A DNA stretch of 5,735 nt, from positions 1 to 5,735 of the forward strand of contig SKYX01000135.1 of the NCBI GenBank assembly GCA_007127655.1. Direction: 5' to 3'. The translations under genes and the position numbers were made by a program. Positions 1 through 5,735 of the stretch are shown piece by piece (within the stretch, counting starts at the first letter, position 1; each line of letters opens with the position of its first letter). The DNA is from Desulfonatronum sp. Its GTDB lineage: Bacteria > Desulfobacterota > Desulfovibrionia > Desulfovibrionales > Desulfonatronaceae. The notes beneath the pieces are model-generated. The model was not told the DNA's origin. It worked only from the letters and a program-made list of their open reading frames with translations, and did no database searches.

Positions 1-33
1 CTGGGCCCGGGTGAGGTTCATGACGACTTCTAG
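1..33 (+). CDS. C-terminal tail of upstream gene, probably HipB-like antitoxin (partial)
   Basis: An open frame enters from the left edge and reads LGPGEVHDDF before a TAG at 31-33. It overlaps the start of hipA by 14 bases when the ATG at 20 is used. In hipBA modules the small HTH antitoxin gene hipB normally lies directly upstream of hipA and often overlaps it, so HipB is the natural candidate. Only ten residues are visible and no HTH can be seen, so the identity rests on position alone. Confidence 0.4.
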   Translation: MGPGEVHDDF

Positions 34-1339
34 GCGCGGTCCGCTTACGGAAGCCTTTGTCTGGATCTGGCTTCCGGAGGAGACGGAACCCGTGGTGGCC
101 GGGCGACTCACGGGCCAGGGCGAAAGCCTGGTTTTCAATTACGGACGGAGCTACCTGGCCCGGGACAACGCCATCCCGCTGTACGCCCCGGAACTGCCTC
201 TGCAATCCGGTCGCCTGTTGCCGCGTCCGGGAATGCGCATGCCCGGCTGCATCCGTGACGCCTCCCCGGACGCCTGGGGGCGCAGGGTCATTCTCGTTCG
301 ATTGTTCGGAATGTCCGGCCCGGCCACGGACACCGGACAGGCGGATGAACTGACCTATCTGTTGAACTCCGGCTCCGACCGAATCGGTGCGCTGGATTTT
401 CAACATTCGGCCACGTTGTTTGAACCTCGATCCTCCGGAACGGTTTCCCTGGAGGAACTTCTGGAAGCTGCCGAACGCGTGGAAAAAGGCCTCGCCCTCA
501 CCCCGGACCTTGACCAGGCCTTGCGCCACGGCACGTCCATCGGCGGGGCGCGTCCCAAGGCCCTGGTGGAAGATGCCGACGGAAAGCGCATCGCCAAGTT
601 CTCCTCTTCCACGGACCTCTACGCCGTGCTCAAGGCCGAGTTCGTCGCCATGCGCCTGGCTCGTTTTTGCGGATTGGACGTCGCGTCGGTGCGCATGACC
701 CGGGCCGCGAACACGGACGTCCTGCTCATTGATCGCTTTGACCGGGAACGTACCCCCAACGGCTGGCGGCGCAAAGCCATGGTCACGGCCCTGACCATGC
801 TCGAACTGGATGAGCTGATGGCCCGGTACGCCTCCTATGAGCAATTCGCCGAACTGATCCGGCACCGCTTTACAAACGCCTCGACAACCTTGCGCGAACT
901 CTTCGGCCGGCTGACCTTCAACATTCTGGTCGGCAATACCGACGACCACGCCCGCAACCATTCAGCCTTCTGGGATGGCCGGATGCTTACCCTCACCCCG
1001 GCCTACGACATCTGTCCCCAAGGCCGGACGGGCCGGGAAGCCTCCCAAGCCATGCTCATCCAGGGCAACCGACGGATGAGCAAGCTCTCCCTCTGTCTGG
1101 ATGCCGCGCACCTCTTTCTGTTGTCCGAGACCAGCGCCTGTAATCTGATCGGAGGGCAAATCAAAGCCATCGGCGACCATTGGCGGACAGTGTGCGACGA
1201 GGCGGGCTGCACCGAGATGGATGAAAAAATGATGTGGGGCCACCAGTTCCTGAATCCTTTTGCCTTCGAAGACCTGAGCGGGCCGCGCTCGTGGATTCGC
1301 GAACTTGCCGAAGACGTCCTCGACTCTCCGCGCGGGTAG
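20..1339 (+). CDS. hipA: HipA-family serine/threonine kinase toxin
   Basis: HipA toxins are cytoplasmic protein kinases; E. coli HipA phosphorylates glutamyl-tRNA synthetase, halting translation and causing persistence, and is neutralised by HipB. From the ATG at 20 this protein has 439 residues, close to the 440 of E. coli HipA. The HipA N-terminal domain spans about 12-110 and the kinase-like HipA C domain about 168-395. Visible motifs are GTSIGGARPKA, with Ser173 matching the autophosphorylated P-loop serine (Ser150 in E. coli); K192 in RIAKF, a likely ATP lysine; NTDDHARNH at 306-314, with D308 and N313 matching the catalytic Asp and Asn; and YDICP, with D330 as metal-binding Asp. All key residues are present, so it looks active. 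A GTG at 11 would add three residues, but the ATG has a GGTGAGG just upstream, although only 3 bases away. The start overlaps the preceding gene, suggesting translational coupling. The target cannot be inferred. Confidence 0.93.
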   Translation: MTTSRRGPLTEAFVWIWLPEETEPVVAGRLTGQGESLVFNYGRSYLARDNAIPLYAPELPLQSGRLLPRPGMRMPGCIRDASPDAWGRRVILVRLFGMSGPATDTGQADELTYLLNSGSDRIGALDFQHSATLFEPRSSGTVSLEELLEAAERVEKGLALTPDLDQALRHGTSIGGARPKALVEDADGKRIAKFSSSTDLYAVLKAEFVAMRLARFCGLDVASVRMTRAANTDVLLIDRFDRERTPNGWRRKAMVTALTMLELDELMARYASYEQFAELIRHRFTNASTTLRELFGRLTFNILVGNTDDHARNHSAFWDGRMLTLTPAYDICPQGRTGREASQAMLIQGNRRMSKLSLCLDAAHLFLLSETSACNLIGGQIKAIGDHWRTVCDEAGCTEMDEKMMWGHQFLNPFAFEDLSGPRSWIRELAEDVLDSPRG

Positions 1340-1661: not shown

Positions 1662-3359
1662 TTACTTCACGGGAAAGTAGAGGTGAAAGCGGGCACCTTG
1701 TCCTGGCGAGCTGTGAACCTCAATGAATCCGCCATGCTCCTCGATGATTTTTTTGCAAATGGGTAGTCCCAGGCCGGAGCCGAGATCCTTTGCTGTGGTG
1801 AAAGGCTCAAAGAGAACGCCGGTCATGGCCTCCGGCACGCCCGGGCCGTTGTCCGCGACAATCAACTCTATCCAGCGACGCTTCTCCTTTTCAACATCCT
1901 CCGCGCTGATGCTCAGCCGCCCCCCGTCGGGCAGGGCCTCCAGGGCGTTGTCCAGCAATTGATTCACGACAATCTCGATCTGCTCCACTTCCATCGATAT
2001 CAAGGGGAGCGAAGAAGAGATGCGCGCATGCATTTCAATCCCGCGTTCATCGATTTGTCGCTGATAGCGATCCAGGACGTCTTGCAGCACCTCGGCCAGG
2101 GATTGGTTCGCGGAAAGAGGAGCTTTTTCACGGCTATAGATAAGCAGTTCCTTCAACATTCTTTCCAGGCGGCGCAGTTCGGCCAGAATAATTCCGGCAT
2201 AACGGCGTTCTTCTTCACTCTGGGCAACCATTTCCAGGCGACGGGCAAAACCTCCCGCGGACGTCAGTGGATTTCTGATGGCATGGGTTACGTTTTCGGT
2301 CATGCGGCCCAAGGCGGCCATCTTTTCCGCATGAACAAGCTGTTCCTGGGCTTTTTCCAGTTGTTCCCTGATCCGGTTCACCTCCTGTTCGAGGGTTGTA
2401 TTCCATGATTGCATTTTTTCTCTGGAAGCATGCAGTTCTTCCAGCATTGCGTTGAAGCTGACGCCCAGCAGACTCAACTCATCTCGAGTCGGTTCGACCT
2501 GGAGATGGTCCTGTTGATGGCCGGAAGATTTCTGAAAGGAAACCAACAAGCCTCGGAGAGAGGAGACGACGATTTTATTGAAAAGGACGCCCAGAGCGAC
2601 AAAGATGAAAAACAGGATCGCAAAAATTACGAGGAACCCGGAAACGGCCCTGCTCTTCAACTGGTCCAGGGCCGTATGCACGGGTATGCCTACGGAGATC
2701 ACTCCAGCCAAATCCCCGGCCCTGCGCCCAAATCCTCCCACGGAACCGTAGGTTTCGATCAATTCCGTCGGTGCGTGTTTCGGATCGCCATGGCAGCGCA
2801 GGCACTCCTGTTCAAAGTAGACCGGCTTGTAGCGGCGATATTCAGGCTGCTCTTCCACCTCCACGATCCCCTGCCACTCCAGAACGTCGGGATGTTCCCG
2901 GAAATAGGCAATCATTTCCACTTCGGATTCTCGGGATTCATATTTCGGATTGCGGGCATTGATCGAGGTGCGACGATACTCGATATCGGGCAGGGCTGGT
3001 GAAAGACGATCCGCGAAGGCTCTCGCAACATACGAGGTGGACATGGCCTCGCGCAGGAAAAAGTCATGCCCCATTACTTCTTGCATTACGGGGCGCAGTT
3101 CCTCGCGAACATAAGCCCTGCTGGCTTCCACAGCGGACATGACCATTTCCGACTCGGCATAGGCCTTGTCCATAAGCTGGCGCTGTTCATAAAAGTAAAT
3201 GAACAAAGCTCCTCCAAAACAAAAAGCCAGGAGAATCAGGGAAGTGCCGATCAGAAACTTTGTCTGCAGCCCCAGGGAAGGCTGTTCCCGTTGATCATGG
3301 GCATGGCCGTCCGCCCTATGTGTGTTAGCTGAATCGAGAACCTGTTTGGCTGTCTGCAT
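1662..3359 (-). CDS. Membrane sensor histidine kinase with c-type haem-motif (DUF3365/Tll0287-like) periplasmic domain
   Basis: A two-component sensor kinase of 565 residues from the ATG at 3357-3359. In order: a short cytoplasmic N-terminus; TM1 about 35-57; a periplasmic domain about 60-235 carrying CLRCH at 186-190, a CxxCH c-haem attachment motif typical of DUF3365 sensors; TM2 about 239-263; a HAMP-like linker to about 312; a coiled coil about 315-350; a HisKA domain with phospho-acceptor H359 in THAIRNPLTS; and HATPase_c with the N box around N466 and N471, G1 DNGPGV at 503-508, F box LFEPFTT and G2 GSGLGL. All catalytic boxes are intact. The start was chosen because GAGG (3367-3370) lies 7 bases upstream and it gives a normal N-terminus before TM1. 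The frame stays open upstream to 3503, but those starts (a TTG and other ATGs) have poor ribosome binding sites. Likely signals are redox state or small ligands at haem, which is inference. No partner regulator is in the window. Confidence 0.93.
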   Translation of the reverse strand: MQTAKQVLDSANTHRADGHAHDQREQPSLGLQTKFLIGTSLILLAFCFGGALFIYFYEQRQLMDKAYAESEMVMSAVEASRAYVREELRPVMQEVMGHDFFLREAMSTSYVARAFADRLSPALPDIEYRRTSINARNPKYESRESEVEMIAYFREHPDVLEWQGIVEVEEQPEYRRYKPVYFEQECLRCHGDPKHAPTELIETYGSVGGFGRRAGDLAGVISVGIPVHTALDQLKSRAVSGFLVIFAILFFIFVALGVLFNKIVVSSLRGLLVSFQKSSGHQQDHLQVEPTRDELSLLGVSFNAMLEELHASREKMQSWNTTLEQEVNRIREQLEKAQEQLVHAEKMAALGRMTENVTHAIRNPLTSAGGFARRLEMVAQSEEERRYAGIILAELRRLERMLKELLIYSREKAPLSANQSLAEVLQDVLDRYQRQIDERGIEMHARISSSLPLISMEVEQIEIVVNQLLDNALEALPDGGRLSISAEDVEKEKRRWIELIVADNGPGVPEAMTGVLFEPFTTAKDLGSGLGLPICKKIIEEHGGFIEVHSSPGQGARFHLYFPVK

Positions 3360-3690
3360 TATCAATCCTCGATAAGAATACGGATTTTTTGGCGCACTTC
3401 CCTTTTCTCTCCTTGGTCCTTTCATCTCTTCAAACAGAGGGGCGGGATCACGCAGCTGAATCATTGCCCTGCGTGATCGCCGTCTTTCTCGTGATAAAGG
3501 CAATTATCATGATTGCGGCAGTGAGAAAATACAAGCAAGTCCTTCGATCGCGAGGAAAGGCGCGAGCGCGATGCGGGGATCAGCGACGCGGAAGAGGTGA
3601 GTCGGAAGATCAAGCAGGCCTTCCTTGCCGGGGTGGATTTGGTGATTCTCGCTTGCGGGTACTCGCTTCACCAGGCAGCAAGTCCGTTCC
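3360..3690. other. Intergenic region upstream of the histidine kinase
   Basis: 331 bases between the end of the selenoprotein gene and the chosen kinase start, both on the minus strand. It contains the kinase ribosome binding site (3367-3370), a perfect inverted repeat (3446-3478) and a plus-strand open stretch from about 3525 that reads like a coding remnant but has no good start. No convincing terminator for the selenoprotein gene was found. A minus-strand TTGTAT / 17-base spacer / CATGAT pair lies within about 3504-3532 but matches the sigma-70 consensus poorly. Confidence 0.5.
3446..3478. repeat. Perfect 10-bp inverted repeat upstream of the kinase, possible operator
   Basis: GATCACGCAG at 3446-3455 and its exact inverse CTGCGTGATC at 3469-3478 flank a 13-base spacer. 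They lie 87-119 bases upstream of the kinase start codon. GGC/GCC can extend the pairing past a two-base bulge. No T-run follows on either strand, so an operator, or a hairpin in the 5' leader, fits better than a terminator. If the kinase started farther upstream, this would lie within coding sequence. Confidence 0.55.
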
Positions 3691-5007
3691 TCAAGTCGCG
3701 AGCAACAGCCCCAACCCCTTCAAATCCCCCCCAAGATACGCCCGTTCGTTTTCACCGAGCATGCCCAGGGAGAGGCAGATCAGGGTCCAGAGGTGGACGG
3801 TGTGCCAGTTGTGGCCGAAGTGGTCGGCCAGGTCGTGGATTTGGGAATGGCAGTTGTGGCAGGGGGCGATGCAGTAGGTGGCACCGGTGGCCAGGATCTG
3901 ATCCCGCTTGCGCAGCCCGTAGGCCCTGCGGGCTTCGGGAAAGCCTGCCTGGAGCGCGCCGCCTCCGCCTCCGCAACAATAGTTGTTGGACTTGCAGGGA
4001 TACATCTCCACGAAGTTCTCCGGGCCGACCACGCTTTTGACCACGAAGCGCAGGTCGTTGGCGATTTCGTCGCCCAGGGATTTGCGGACCAGCTGACACG
4101 GGTCCTGCACGGTGAACTTGATCCCCAGGTCGCGGTTCCAGTCGCTGGTCACGGGCAGCTTGCCCTCCCGGATCCAGCGAGCGTACCAGGTGATGATGCT
4201 TTCCAGGCGAAAGTTCGGGGTGATGCCGAATTTTTGCAGCCCGACCCGGACCGCGTAGAATTCGTGGCCTCACTCCGTGTTCAGCCAGACCTTGGCTCCC
4301 AGGTCCTCCACGGCCTTGACCTTTTCCCGGACGATGCGCTCCCAGGCCGCTTCGTCCGCCGCGAACATGCAGTAGTTTTCCGCGGCCCAGCCCAAAGAAC
4401 CGTATGTCCAGTCCGCGCCGACATGGTCCAGGATTTTCCAGAGCGGAACCATTTCATCCGGCTCGGTCATGGGTTCCCGGGAATTCTGATTCAGGAAGAA
4501 AAAGGTCTCCGGCTTGTTCATGGGGGCCCGCAACAGTTCAAAGCCTTTTTGAACCGCATGGACCTCTTCCAGGACATCATCGACGACAAACTTGAAATCT
4601 TCGGGGCTGGCCCCCATGGCTGAGCCGGTTTTGGTGCGCAGGGACTGGTCGCAGGAGGCGACCACGCCTTTGGGCCGTTGCTCCCGGGGCCAGCAGGTCC
4701 GGGCGTGGTAGATCAGGCTGGGGATGTCGATGTTCATCGGGCAGACGTGCTGGCAGCGCTTGCACAGGGTGCACATCCAGACCCAGGGGGTCTGGAGCAA
4801 TTCCGCGTCCAGCCCCAGGGCGGCCATGCGTACGAACTTCCGTGGATCCATGTCCGCCAGGCCGGAAGCCGGGCATCCGGAGGAGCACAGGCCGCAGCTC
4901 AGGCACATGGTGTAGTTGCCGTCCCGGGGAAGGAGGTCGTGGGCCCGGCGTCGAAAGGTGGGGGCCGTGATGTCGGTGGAAAGCGTGGAGGAGGATTCCG
5001 GGTTCAT
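3691..5007 (-). CDS. Selenocysteine-containing HdrD/DsrK/GlpC-like CCG-domain iron-sulfur oxidoreductase (in-frame UGA read as Sec)
   Basis: One 438-residue protein with an in-frame TGA at codon 246. The N-terminal part has two 4Fe-4S motifs, Cys 35/38/41/45 and Cys 79/82/85/89, each CxxCxxCxxxCP, like HdrC. The C-terminal part is HdrB-like: C304, C344-C345 in YCCGGGGGA, and C383/C386 in CHNC form a complete CCG motif (CX39CCX37CxxC), which in this family binds an unusual 4Fe-4S cluster handling disulfide or quinone electrons. An earlier, degenerate CCG half has C213 and, 32 residues on, the TGA in LNTE-U-GHEFYAV, where relatives as I remember them read ECGHA. The halves share a frame, the sequence through the TGA reads as normal protein, and a SECIS-like hairpin follows. 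No membrane segments, so it is probably cytoplasmic. The start ATG at 5005-5007 has only a weak GGTGA upstream. The alternative is a pseudogene or sequencing error (Cys TGC/TGT to TGA). Function by context: electron transfer perhaps paired with the divergent glpA. Confidence 0.87.
4236..4254 (-). promoter_or_regulatory. Bacterial SECIS-like hairpin downstream of the UGA
   Basis: The minus-strand transcript here can form a 7-bp stem, GCGGUCC with GGGCUGC (five Watson-Crick and two G-U pairs), closing a GGGUC loop. The stem begins 15 bases after the UGA and the loop's first G is 23 bases past its last base. Bacterial SECIS elements lie inside the coding sequence just after UGA, with a short loop that has G in its first positions (GGUCU in E. 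coli fdhF), and bind SelB. Geometry and loop agree. No folding program was run. Confidence 0.68.
4270..4272 (-). other. UGA codon proposed to encode selenocysteine (residue 246)
   Basis: TGA on the minus strand between GAA (Glu) and GGC (Gly), giving E-U-G-H. It is in frame with both flanking coding segments, and no other in-frame stop occurs between 5007 and 3694. It replaces what should be the Cys of an ECGH motif, the usual site of Sec/Cys exchange. The gene's real stop is the TGA at 3691-3693, just after LLLAT. Confidence 0.82.
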
Positions 5008-5023
5008 GGTTCACCGTTCACGG
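5003..5023. repeat. Three tandem 7-bp units over the selenoprotein start codon
   Basis: On the plus strand TTCATGG, TTCACCG and TTCACGG follow each other directly, sharing the core TTCA. The first unit contains the start codon (CAT at 5005-5007), and the last two include the small inverted repeat CCGT-TC-ACGG at 5014-5023. The units fill the space where the ribosome binding site should be, leaving only GGTGA as a weak one. Whether they matter for translation is unknown. Confidence 0.5.
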
Positions 5024-5249
5024 TTGGAGAGTTGCGTTTATCTCGACAAAAGAAAGTCGGCTTGTTCGTCCGTTCATGTGCTTAGCCCAGGCCTTTTTCT
5101 GAAGCAATGGTTGTGCGAATTTCGCGGTTCGTATACATGGATTTCGGCTGGCGAAGCGCGGCATCGGTGAACATGCGTCAATACAACCATCTGAATTTGT
5201 TCCCTCAATCGTGAGCATCCAAAACCTTCACCTCGCTCCATAAATCGAC
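5008..5249. promoter_or_regulatory. Divergent promoter region between the selenoprotein gene and glpA
   Basis: A 242-base non-coding region from which the selenoprotein gene is transcribed leftward and glpA rightward, so promoters in both directions are expected here. The AT content is higher than in the flanking genes. I found one plausible plus-strand promoter (5111-5137) and no convincing sigma-70 match leftward. The glpA start has no clear Shine-Dalgarno. Small open frames here lack supporting features. Confidence 0.55.
5111..5137 (+). promoter_or_regulatory. Candidate sigma-70 promoter for glpA overlapping a short palindrome
   Basis: TTGTGC (5111-5116) and TATACA (5132-5137) resemble -35 and -10 boxes with a 15-base spacer, shorter than the ideal 17. 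The palindrome GCGAA-T-TTCGC (5115-5125) overlaps the -35 end and spacer, where a repressor could act. It lies about 110 bases upstream of the glpA ATG. The boxes are imperfect, so this is tentative. Confidence 0.25.
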
Positions 5250-5735
5250 ATGCAAACGGATGTTTTAATCATCGGCGCCGGGGCCGTGGGTACGGGGATT
5301 GCGCGGGATCTCGCTTTGCGGGGCGTTTCCTCGGTGGTGGTGGAACGGGGGGACGTCAATTCCGGGGCCTCCGGAGGCAATCACGGGTTGCTGCACAGCG
5401 GGGGGCGGTACGTGGCCGGGGACGTTCATTCCGCTCGGGAGTGTCGGGAAGAGAACGAGTTGTTGAAGCGCCTGGCCCCGCAGTGCATTGAGGAATGTGG
5501 AGGACTTTACGTGGCCGTGGCCGGGGACGACGAGCAATACATCGCGGATTTTCCGGGATGGTGCCAGGCCGCGGGGATTCAGGCGCAAAGCGTCGCTTTG
5601 GCCGATGCCCGGAGCATGGAGCCCGCTCTGAGCGAAAACCTCATCGCCGCCTACGCCCTGCCCGACGCCTCTCTGGACCCGTTCCGCCTTTCCCTGGAAA
5701 ATCTGGCCCATGCCAAGGCCCTGATCGGAAGCACC
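5250..5735 (+). CDS. glpA: Anaerobic glycerol-3-phosphate dehydrogenase subunit A, FAD-dependent (partial, 3' end beyond window)
   Basis: The first 162 codons of an FAD-dependent DAO-fold oxidoreductase; the frame is open to the window edge. The N-terminus has the dinucleotide-binding motif GAGAVG at 9-14 with the acidic E32 ending the second strand (VVVERGD), then SGASGGNHGLLHSGGRY at 38-54, closely matching the flavin-contacting segment of E. coli GlpA (ATGRNHGLLHSGARY). Later pieces SARECREENELLKR and LPDASLDPFRLSLEN also match GlpA. GlpA oxidises sn-glycerol-3-phosphate to dihydroxyacetone phosphate; in E. coli electrons pass through GlpB and GlpC to menaquinone. The ATG at 5250 begins the FAD motif at the expected distance, although no good ribosome binding site precedes it. 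The neighbouring divergent selenoprotein has GlpC-like architecture. A related FAD dehydrogenase of another 2-hydroxy substrate cannot be excluded without the C-terminus. Confidence 0.88.
   Translation, partial: MQTDVLIIGAGAVGTGIARDLALRGVSSVVVERGDVNSGASGGNHGLLHSGGRYVAGDVHSARECREENELLKRLAPQCIEECGGLYVAVAGDDEQYIADFPGWCQAAGIQAQSVALADARSMEPALSENLIAAYALPDASLDPFRLSLENLAHAKALIGST

Follow-up and report, generated by a model that had tools for sequence, protein, structure and literature searches.

A predicted UGH-family selenoprotein encoded beside glpA in Desulfonatronum and its possible role as an electron acceptor of GlpAB

The 5,735-nt stretch of DNA analysed here (the window) comes from a Desulfonatronum sp., a relative of sulfate reducers (assembly GCA_007127655.1, contig SKYX01000135.1). 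It carries a gene for a CCG-family iron-sulfur oxidoreductase of 438 residues, in which an in-frame TGA replaces the cysteine codon of an ECGH motif and is predicted to encode selenocysteine (Sec). We modestly favour the reading that this protein, a member of the UGH family of selenoproteins, is the soluble electron acceptor of the neighbouring anaerobic glycerol-3-phosphate dehydrogenase, GlpAB. The observations behind this reading are a conserved TGA, exchange between Sec and Cys at that position, a hairpin resembling a selenocysteine insertion sequence (SECIS), a predicted HdrC-HdrB-like fold, a divergent glpA gene in the window's own group, and the presence of genomic tRNA-Sec, selA and selB genes.

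Translation of the minus strand bears out the preliminary description of a single frame, 5007–3691, interrupted by one TGA, through which the sequence reads LNTE-U-GHEFYAV. Under genetic-code table 11 the product stops at codon 246, and a domain search of the selenoprotein places both Pfam Fer4_8 and CCG above their gathering scores. The parts of the gene are as follows, with residue correspondences given to EtfD of Mycobacterium smegmatis (PDB 9ojn).

3694–5007, minus strand: predicted selenoprotein coding sequence, 438 residues, comprising an HdrC-like domain with two [4Fe-4S] sites, a degenerate first CCG domain and a complete second CCG domain
3691–3693, minus strand: terminal stop codon, TGA
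4873–4905, minus strand: first CxxCxxCxxxC motif, C35xxC38xxC41xxxC45P, predicted [4Fe-4S] site
4741–4773, minus strand: second CxxCxxCxxxC motif, C79xxC82xxC85xxxC89P, predicted [4Fe-4S] site
4270–4272, minus strand: in-frame TGA, codon 246, predicted Sec246, the sole internal TGA of the frame
4264–4272, minus strand: UGH motif, U246-G247-H248; U246 aligns with EtfD Cys581 and H248 with EtfD His583
3850–4098, minus strand: complete CCG site, C304, C344/C345 (followed by G) and C383xxC386, matching EtfD Cys637/672/673/709/712, which hold a noncubane cluster in EtfD

The preliminary description proposed that, if the TGA encodes Sec, the corresponding column in homologues should hold either Cys or another in-frame TGA, and no other codon was seen there. 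A scan of one genome per species (84,980 species) yielded 200 confirmed relatives, and in the 80 of these that were kept the column is TGA without exception. Among 146 distinct homologues read at the DNA level (scan relatives, paralogues and fetched subfamilies, with the window excluded), the codon is TGA in 117, TGC in 27 and TGT in two; this 117:29 split is not a population ratio, as 60 regions were chosen by us, 25 of them for showing no in-frame TGA in the hit table. All 120 database proteins among the matches listed (2397 matched) have Cys at this position. A match at E <= 1e-100 was found in three of the seven other genomes of the genus (G399, G400 and G401) and in none of the remaining four. 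The copies in G399 and G401 are 94% and 96% identical to the window protein and carry the same TGA, while that of G400 is 69% identical; because the TGA recurs in close congeners, one of which (G401) is assembled as a single contig, an assembly error is very unlikely. The sequence past the TGA shows no decay, as all 56 alignment rows keep the five second-domain CCG cysteines. These results support the earlier proposal of a CCG-family selenoprotein in which Sec stands where ECGH would have its cysteine.

Sec and Cys have exchanged repeatedly at this position, with at least 16 state changes on a 100-row tree built by a quick method with the site column removed and with long-branch warnings. Ten genomes hold a TGA copy and a Cys copy together. 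All ten Cys copies had their codon read directly; among the TGA copies the column was read in G391, G277, G172, G254 and G132, and those of G036, G389, G070, G080 and G295 were taken from the hit table only, with at most four candidates scored per genome. Pairs of this kind would agree with a back-up that spares selenium. At L030, TGA and Cys copies stand in tandem. Sampling 395 genomes of the phylum at E <= 1e-60 turned up a Sec or Cys member in 104; the family is thus common, and translation under table 11 splits its Sec members in two.

A bacterial-type SECIS is expected directly past the TGA, and a hairpin with an invariant loop G was found at this position.

4236–4254, minus strand: SECIS-like hairpin, 19 bases, with a 7-bp stem and a 5-nt loop, beginning 15 nt past the TGA

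Fold prediction adds a lower stem, which lengthens this hairpin to about 4227–4264. The stem cells are paired in 92% of cases among 81 distinct close Sec sequences and in 98% among the next group (nine sequences), compared with 43–51% in three groups of Cys sequences (29 in all). When one arm was slid, pairing in the close Sec set fell to 8–35%. At least six of the seven pairs form in 94/113 distinct Sec sequences versus 2/29 Cys sequences. Changes on both sides of the stem were observed, such as A-U in place of G-C and C-G in place of U-A; as the rows are related, they cannot be tallied as independent. Relative to synonymous shuffles, the fold has a mean z of -1.8 in 118 Sec genes as against +0.1 in 29 Cys genes, and no more than five of 100 shuffles were equally stable in 63/118 and 6/29 genes, respectively. 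Codon +8 has its third base in the loop, and this base is G in all 118 Sec genes and in 15 of the 29 Cys genes, where 12 of the 15 codons are Trp or Met; by comparison, among 243 Arg codons lying further downstream in the Sec genes, only 102 have G as their last base. One Cys-coding homologue, L127:4631–5842, still has a strong SECIS-like hairpin after its Cys codon (z -2.8) and is perhaps a recent Sec-to-Cys change.

The search for Sec decoding genes proposed in the preliminary description was answered in part. tRNA-Sec, SelA and SelB score above cut-off in the window's genome, but SelD does not in this assembly of 439 contigs and 84% completeness. SelD is present in 19 of 20 relatives, with an in-frame TGA of its own in all 19, and the simple reading of its failure to score above cut-off here is a gap in the assembly.

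The position of Sec246 can be assessed by comparison with known CCG proteins. Residues 9–416 of the predicted model align to EtfD 275–747 only, HdrC is the PDB entry that the N-terminal half matches best by sequence, and HdrB follows EtfD in the structure comparison. The window protein resembles HdrB/HdrC (5odc, 8rvu, 7bkb) in having HdrC-like N-terminal and HdrB-like C-terminal halves, but the halves are fused, and it has one complete site where HdrB has two noncubane-cluster sites; the two complete five-Cys CCG sites that define HdrB/HdrD are therefore not both present. EtfD differs from the window protein by its N-terminal membrane domain with heme, and by a first CCG site that has four Cys and holds a linear [3Fe-4S] cluster. 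In the excerpted text of PMC13083937, EtfD Cys581 is a ligand of this linear cluster, and His583 caps the noncubane cluster, making it non-catalytic. In the window protein the first site is degenerate, and residue 246, at the Cys581 position, is its only invariant Cys/Sec position across the 56 rows. The preliminary description had Sec246 ligating or acting at the first-domain site; the homologous Cys581 is indeed a ligand, but a cluster in the first domain of the window protein is unlikely, as judged from the alignment, because no other Cys of that cluster is conserved. A role of Sec246 beside the predicted noncubane cluster of the second domain appears likelier. The ligand set of that cluster in EtfD is matched by C304, C344, C345, C383 and C386 together with H248, which lies two residues from Sec246 and is kept in 53/56 rows.

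A partner for the protein is suggested by the adjoining gene, which is divergently transcribed.

5250–5735, plus strand: 5' part of glpA, which encodes subunit A of anaerobic glycerol-3-phosphate dehydrogenase, truncated where the contig ends; TIGR03377, 193.9 bits, profile positions 1–154 of 530
5008–5249, no strand assigned: 242-base region between the divergent glpA and selenoprotein genes

An alignment of five such intergenic regions gave no convincing shared motif. A divergent glpA stands beside the gene in all seven closest copies with visible surroundings (the window, the four nearest named relatives L022–L025, and the copies of congeners G399 and G401, loci L211 and L212). glpB adjoins glpA in L022, L023 and L211, a FAD_binding_2 protein lies beside glpA in L025 and L212, and the L024 locus is cut inside glpA. 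phnD and phnC come next in L023 and L211, and a phosphonate-binding protein is found in L212. No GlpC scores above cut-off in these seven genomes (best matches 114–129 bits versus 279.9). Because of the divergent glpA in this group and the lack of a GlpC above cut-off, we read the window protein as a partner of GlpAB that is GlpC by role and not by family. As a separate observation, the genes at L211:764–9691 (minus strand) run in one direction as glpA, glpB, phnD, phnC, phnE, an unnamed gene, a HAD hydrolase and class II fructose-bisphosphate aldolase, setting phosphonate-type importer genes beside those for glycerol-3-phosphate oxidation. This run suggests use of a phospho-compound via glycerol-3-phosphate and dihydroxyacetone phosphate.

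The selenoprotein class itself is already known, as the preliminary description had rightly cautioned. A 2006 catalogue lists, in the part cited here, five selenoproteins named 'Fe-S oxidoreductase (GlpC)', one of them in Desulfovibrio vulgaris, and a family operon with hdrA, frhD, frhG and frhA (PMC1794560). A 2007 paper has a readthrough cluster of the same name, including Desulfotalea DP1009, which may be the same family (PMC1914089). The motif UGH appears in a table of a 2026 review, whose excerpted text calls the functions of such selenoproteins largely uncharacterised (PMC13188914). The cited parts of the 2006 and 2026 papers assign the family neither a function nor a cluster. Like these proteins, the window protein has an in-frame TGA at UGH and is a COG0247-type Fe-S oxidoreductase from the Desulfobacterota (the papers' Deltaproteobacteria), an assignment made by motif and by the papers' descriptions of the family (tabled protein WP_174406253.1); the 2006 operons contain hdrA-frhD-frhG-frhA, whereas the window's group lies beside glpA. 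The idea of GlpAB feeding an Hdr-type protein is also in print. In the portion of the Desulfobacterium autotrophicum HRM2 genome paper cited here (PMC2702500), HdrD4 and HdrF2 are Hdr-type selenoproteins, hdrF1 and hdrF2 cluster with glpAB, and electron flow from GlpAB to HdrF is proposed. By description, these CCG selenoproteins share with the window gene a link to glp genes (for hdrF1 and hdrF2), but HdrF is described with transmembrane regions, to which HdrF2 adds a fumarate-reductase domain, whereas the window protein is soluble with 438 residues. The soluble glpA-linked group and the EtfD-based placing of Sec were not found in the literature searched. The NCBIfam models nearest over most of the protein's length are DsrK, HmcF and TmcB, yet its scores are far below their cut-offs (98.7/400, 160.1/750 and 152.6/735 bits). 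Canonical GlpC (TIGR03379) shares the COG, by the papers' naming, and the glpA neighbour, but is likewise far from matched in score.

In the favoured reading, electrons from glycerol-3-phosphate would enter through the GlpAB flavin, cross the two cubane [4Fe-4S] clusters and end at a noncubane [4Fe-4S] cluster on C304, C344, C345, C383 and C386 of the second CCG domain. Sec246, near His248, would point into the cavity that serves disulfide cleavage in HdrB, and its selenolate may bind an open iron or attack a disulfide or trisulfide of the acceptor, for which a DsrC-like protein is a candidate. In other lineages the same adapter may plug into HdrA/MvhD modules. A fuller version would be a selenium-dependent glycerol-3-phosphate dehydrogenase, in which GlpAB and a soluble Sec-containing CCG third subunit, with the Sec246 selenolate at the noncubane [4Fe-4S] cluster, reduce a DsrC-type protein disulfide and some members have their own phosphonate-type importer; taken as a whole, this is unlikely. 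Selenoprotein catalogues have included the family for twenty years, and the review text cited still describes it as largely uncharacterised. The glpA linkage offers a concrete soluble system for assay, and the EtfD comparison sets residue 246 beside an unusual iron-sulfur cluster, making the role of selenium there testable.

Several observations weigh against a selenoprotein partner of GlpAB. With regard to Sec decoding, besides the lack of a SelD above cut-off, SelB does not separate Sec genomes (24/26) from Cys genomes (9/9), and in two of the TGA-bearing genomes no SelB reaches cut-off. Stem cells in a distant Sec group (23 sequences) are paired in only 63% of cases in this register, with six pairs in 7/23; the 121-nt stretch around the TGA is no stabler than its shuffles (z -0.86; 44/200 as good); and an Rfam search of the window gave no match. 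With regard to GlpAB, the glpA link was seen in seven copies, all from a single clade, of which four members with Cys (P0002, P0043, P0062 and P0119) were available only as protein sequences. Against the GlpC model TIGR03379 (cut-off 279.9) the window protein reaches 25.8 bits, L022 has a P-type ATPase after glpB instead of phnD and phnC, and divergent genes need not form one complex. Finally, if His248 caps the cluster as in EtfD, this speaks against disulfide chemistry.

Outside the window's group, the family mostly sits with hdrA and mvhD, which raises the possibility that the protein in fact partners a flavin module of the HdrA/MvhD type whose genes lie elsewhere. The selenoprotein would then replace HdrBC in a bifurcating complex, forming its acceptor arm, and glpA would be a mere neighbour. 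HdrA or MvhD lies within 5 kb in at least 82 of 140 loci, a lower bound because 47 loci have less than 4 kb on one side. HdrA-like open reading frames (ORFs) occur within this distance in 77 loci, all 92 of them on the gene's strand, along with MvhD-like (44), MetF-like (24), hydrogenase protease (16), MvhG-like (12) and MvhA-like (10) ORFs; these names derive from one representative each, most below their own cut-offs. An ORF in 17/140 loci, matched by no model, is presumably MetV-like. The recurrence of metF/metV-like and mvhG/mvhA genes, the HdrC and HdrB matches described above and the published hdrA, frhD, frhG, frhA operon (as excerpted from PMC1794560) are all consistent with such a module. 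However, all seven visible copies of the window's group lie by glpA and no HdrA is listed near L022–L025, while the same-genus G400 copy adjoins HdrA (and the G405 copy HdrA, HdrB and HdrC). Thus, the glpA link looks group-specific, and we regard an HdrA/MvhD-type partner for the window protein as possible but rather unlikely.

Alternatively, Sec246 could be only conducting or protective, with His248 keeping the cluster closed as in EtfD and the protein serving as a wire to quinone or another carrier, without disulfide chemistry. The alignment of the widely kept His248 with the capping His583 agrees with this, as does the term non-catalytic applied to the EtfD cluster in the cited part of PMC13083937. 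However, the ligands of EtfD's full first cluster are not conserved in the window protein, the membrane part of EtfD has no counterpart, and the repeated Sec/Cys exchange at exactly position 246 (on the quick tree described above) suggests a chemical role. We hold this explanation, too, to be rather improbable, though conceivable. That the TGA is a true stop, leaving a pseudogene, an assembly error or a 245-residue ferredoxin-like product, is hardly credible: table-11 translation does end there and Rfam names no SECIS, but the TGA recurs in all 80 kept loci and in the single-contig congener, the cysteines past it are intact, the hairpin is conserved, and tRNA-Sec, SelA and SelB are present.

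The remainder of the window holds other genes. Directly downstream of the selenoprotein gene and on the same strand is a sensor histidine kinase with a Tll0287-like domain and a CxxCH motif (1662–3503, minus strand); in the congener locus L211, a different kinase/receiver protein adjoins the selenoprotein gene on the opposite strand. A HipA-type kinase (Couple_hipA and HipA_C) is encoded at 11–1339 (plus strand), with no partner gene seen within the window. Between the histidine kinase and selenoprotein genes, a short coding-like stretch at 3540–3690 (GVDLVILACGYSLHQAA, plus strand) may be a gene remnant.
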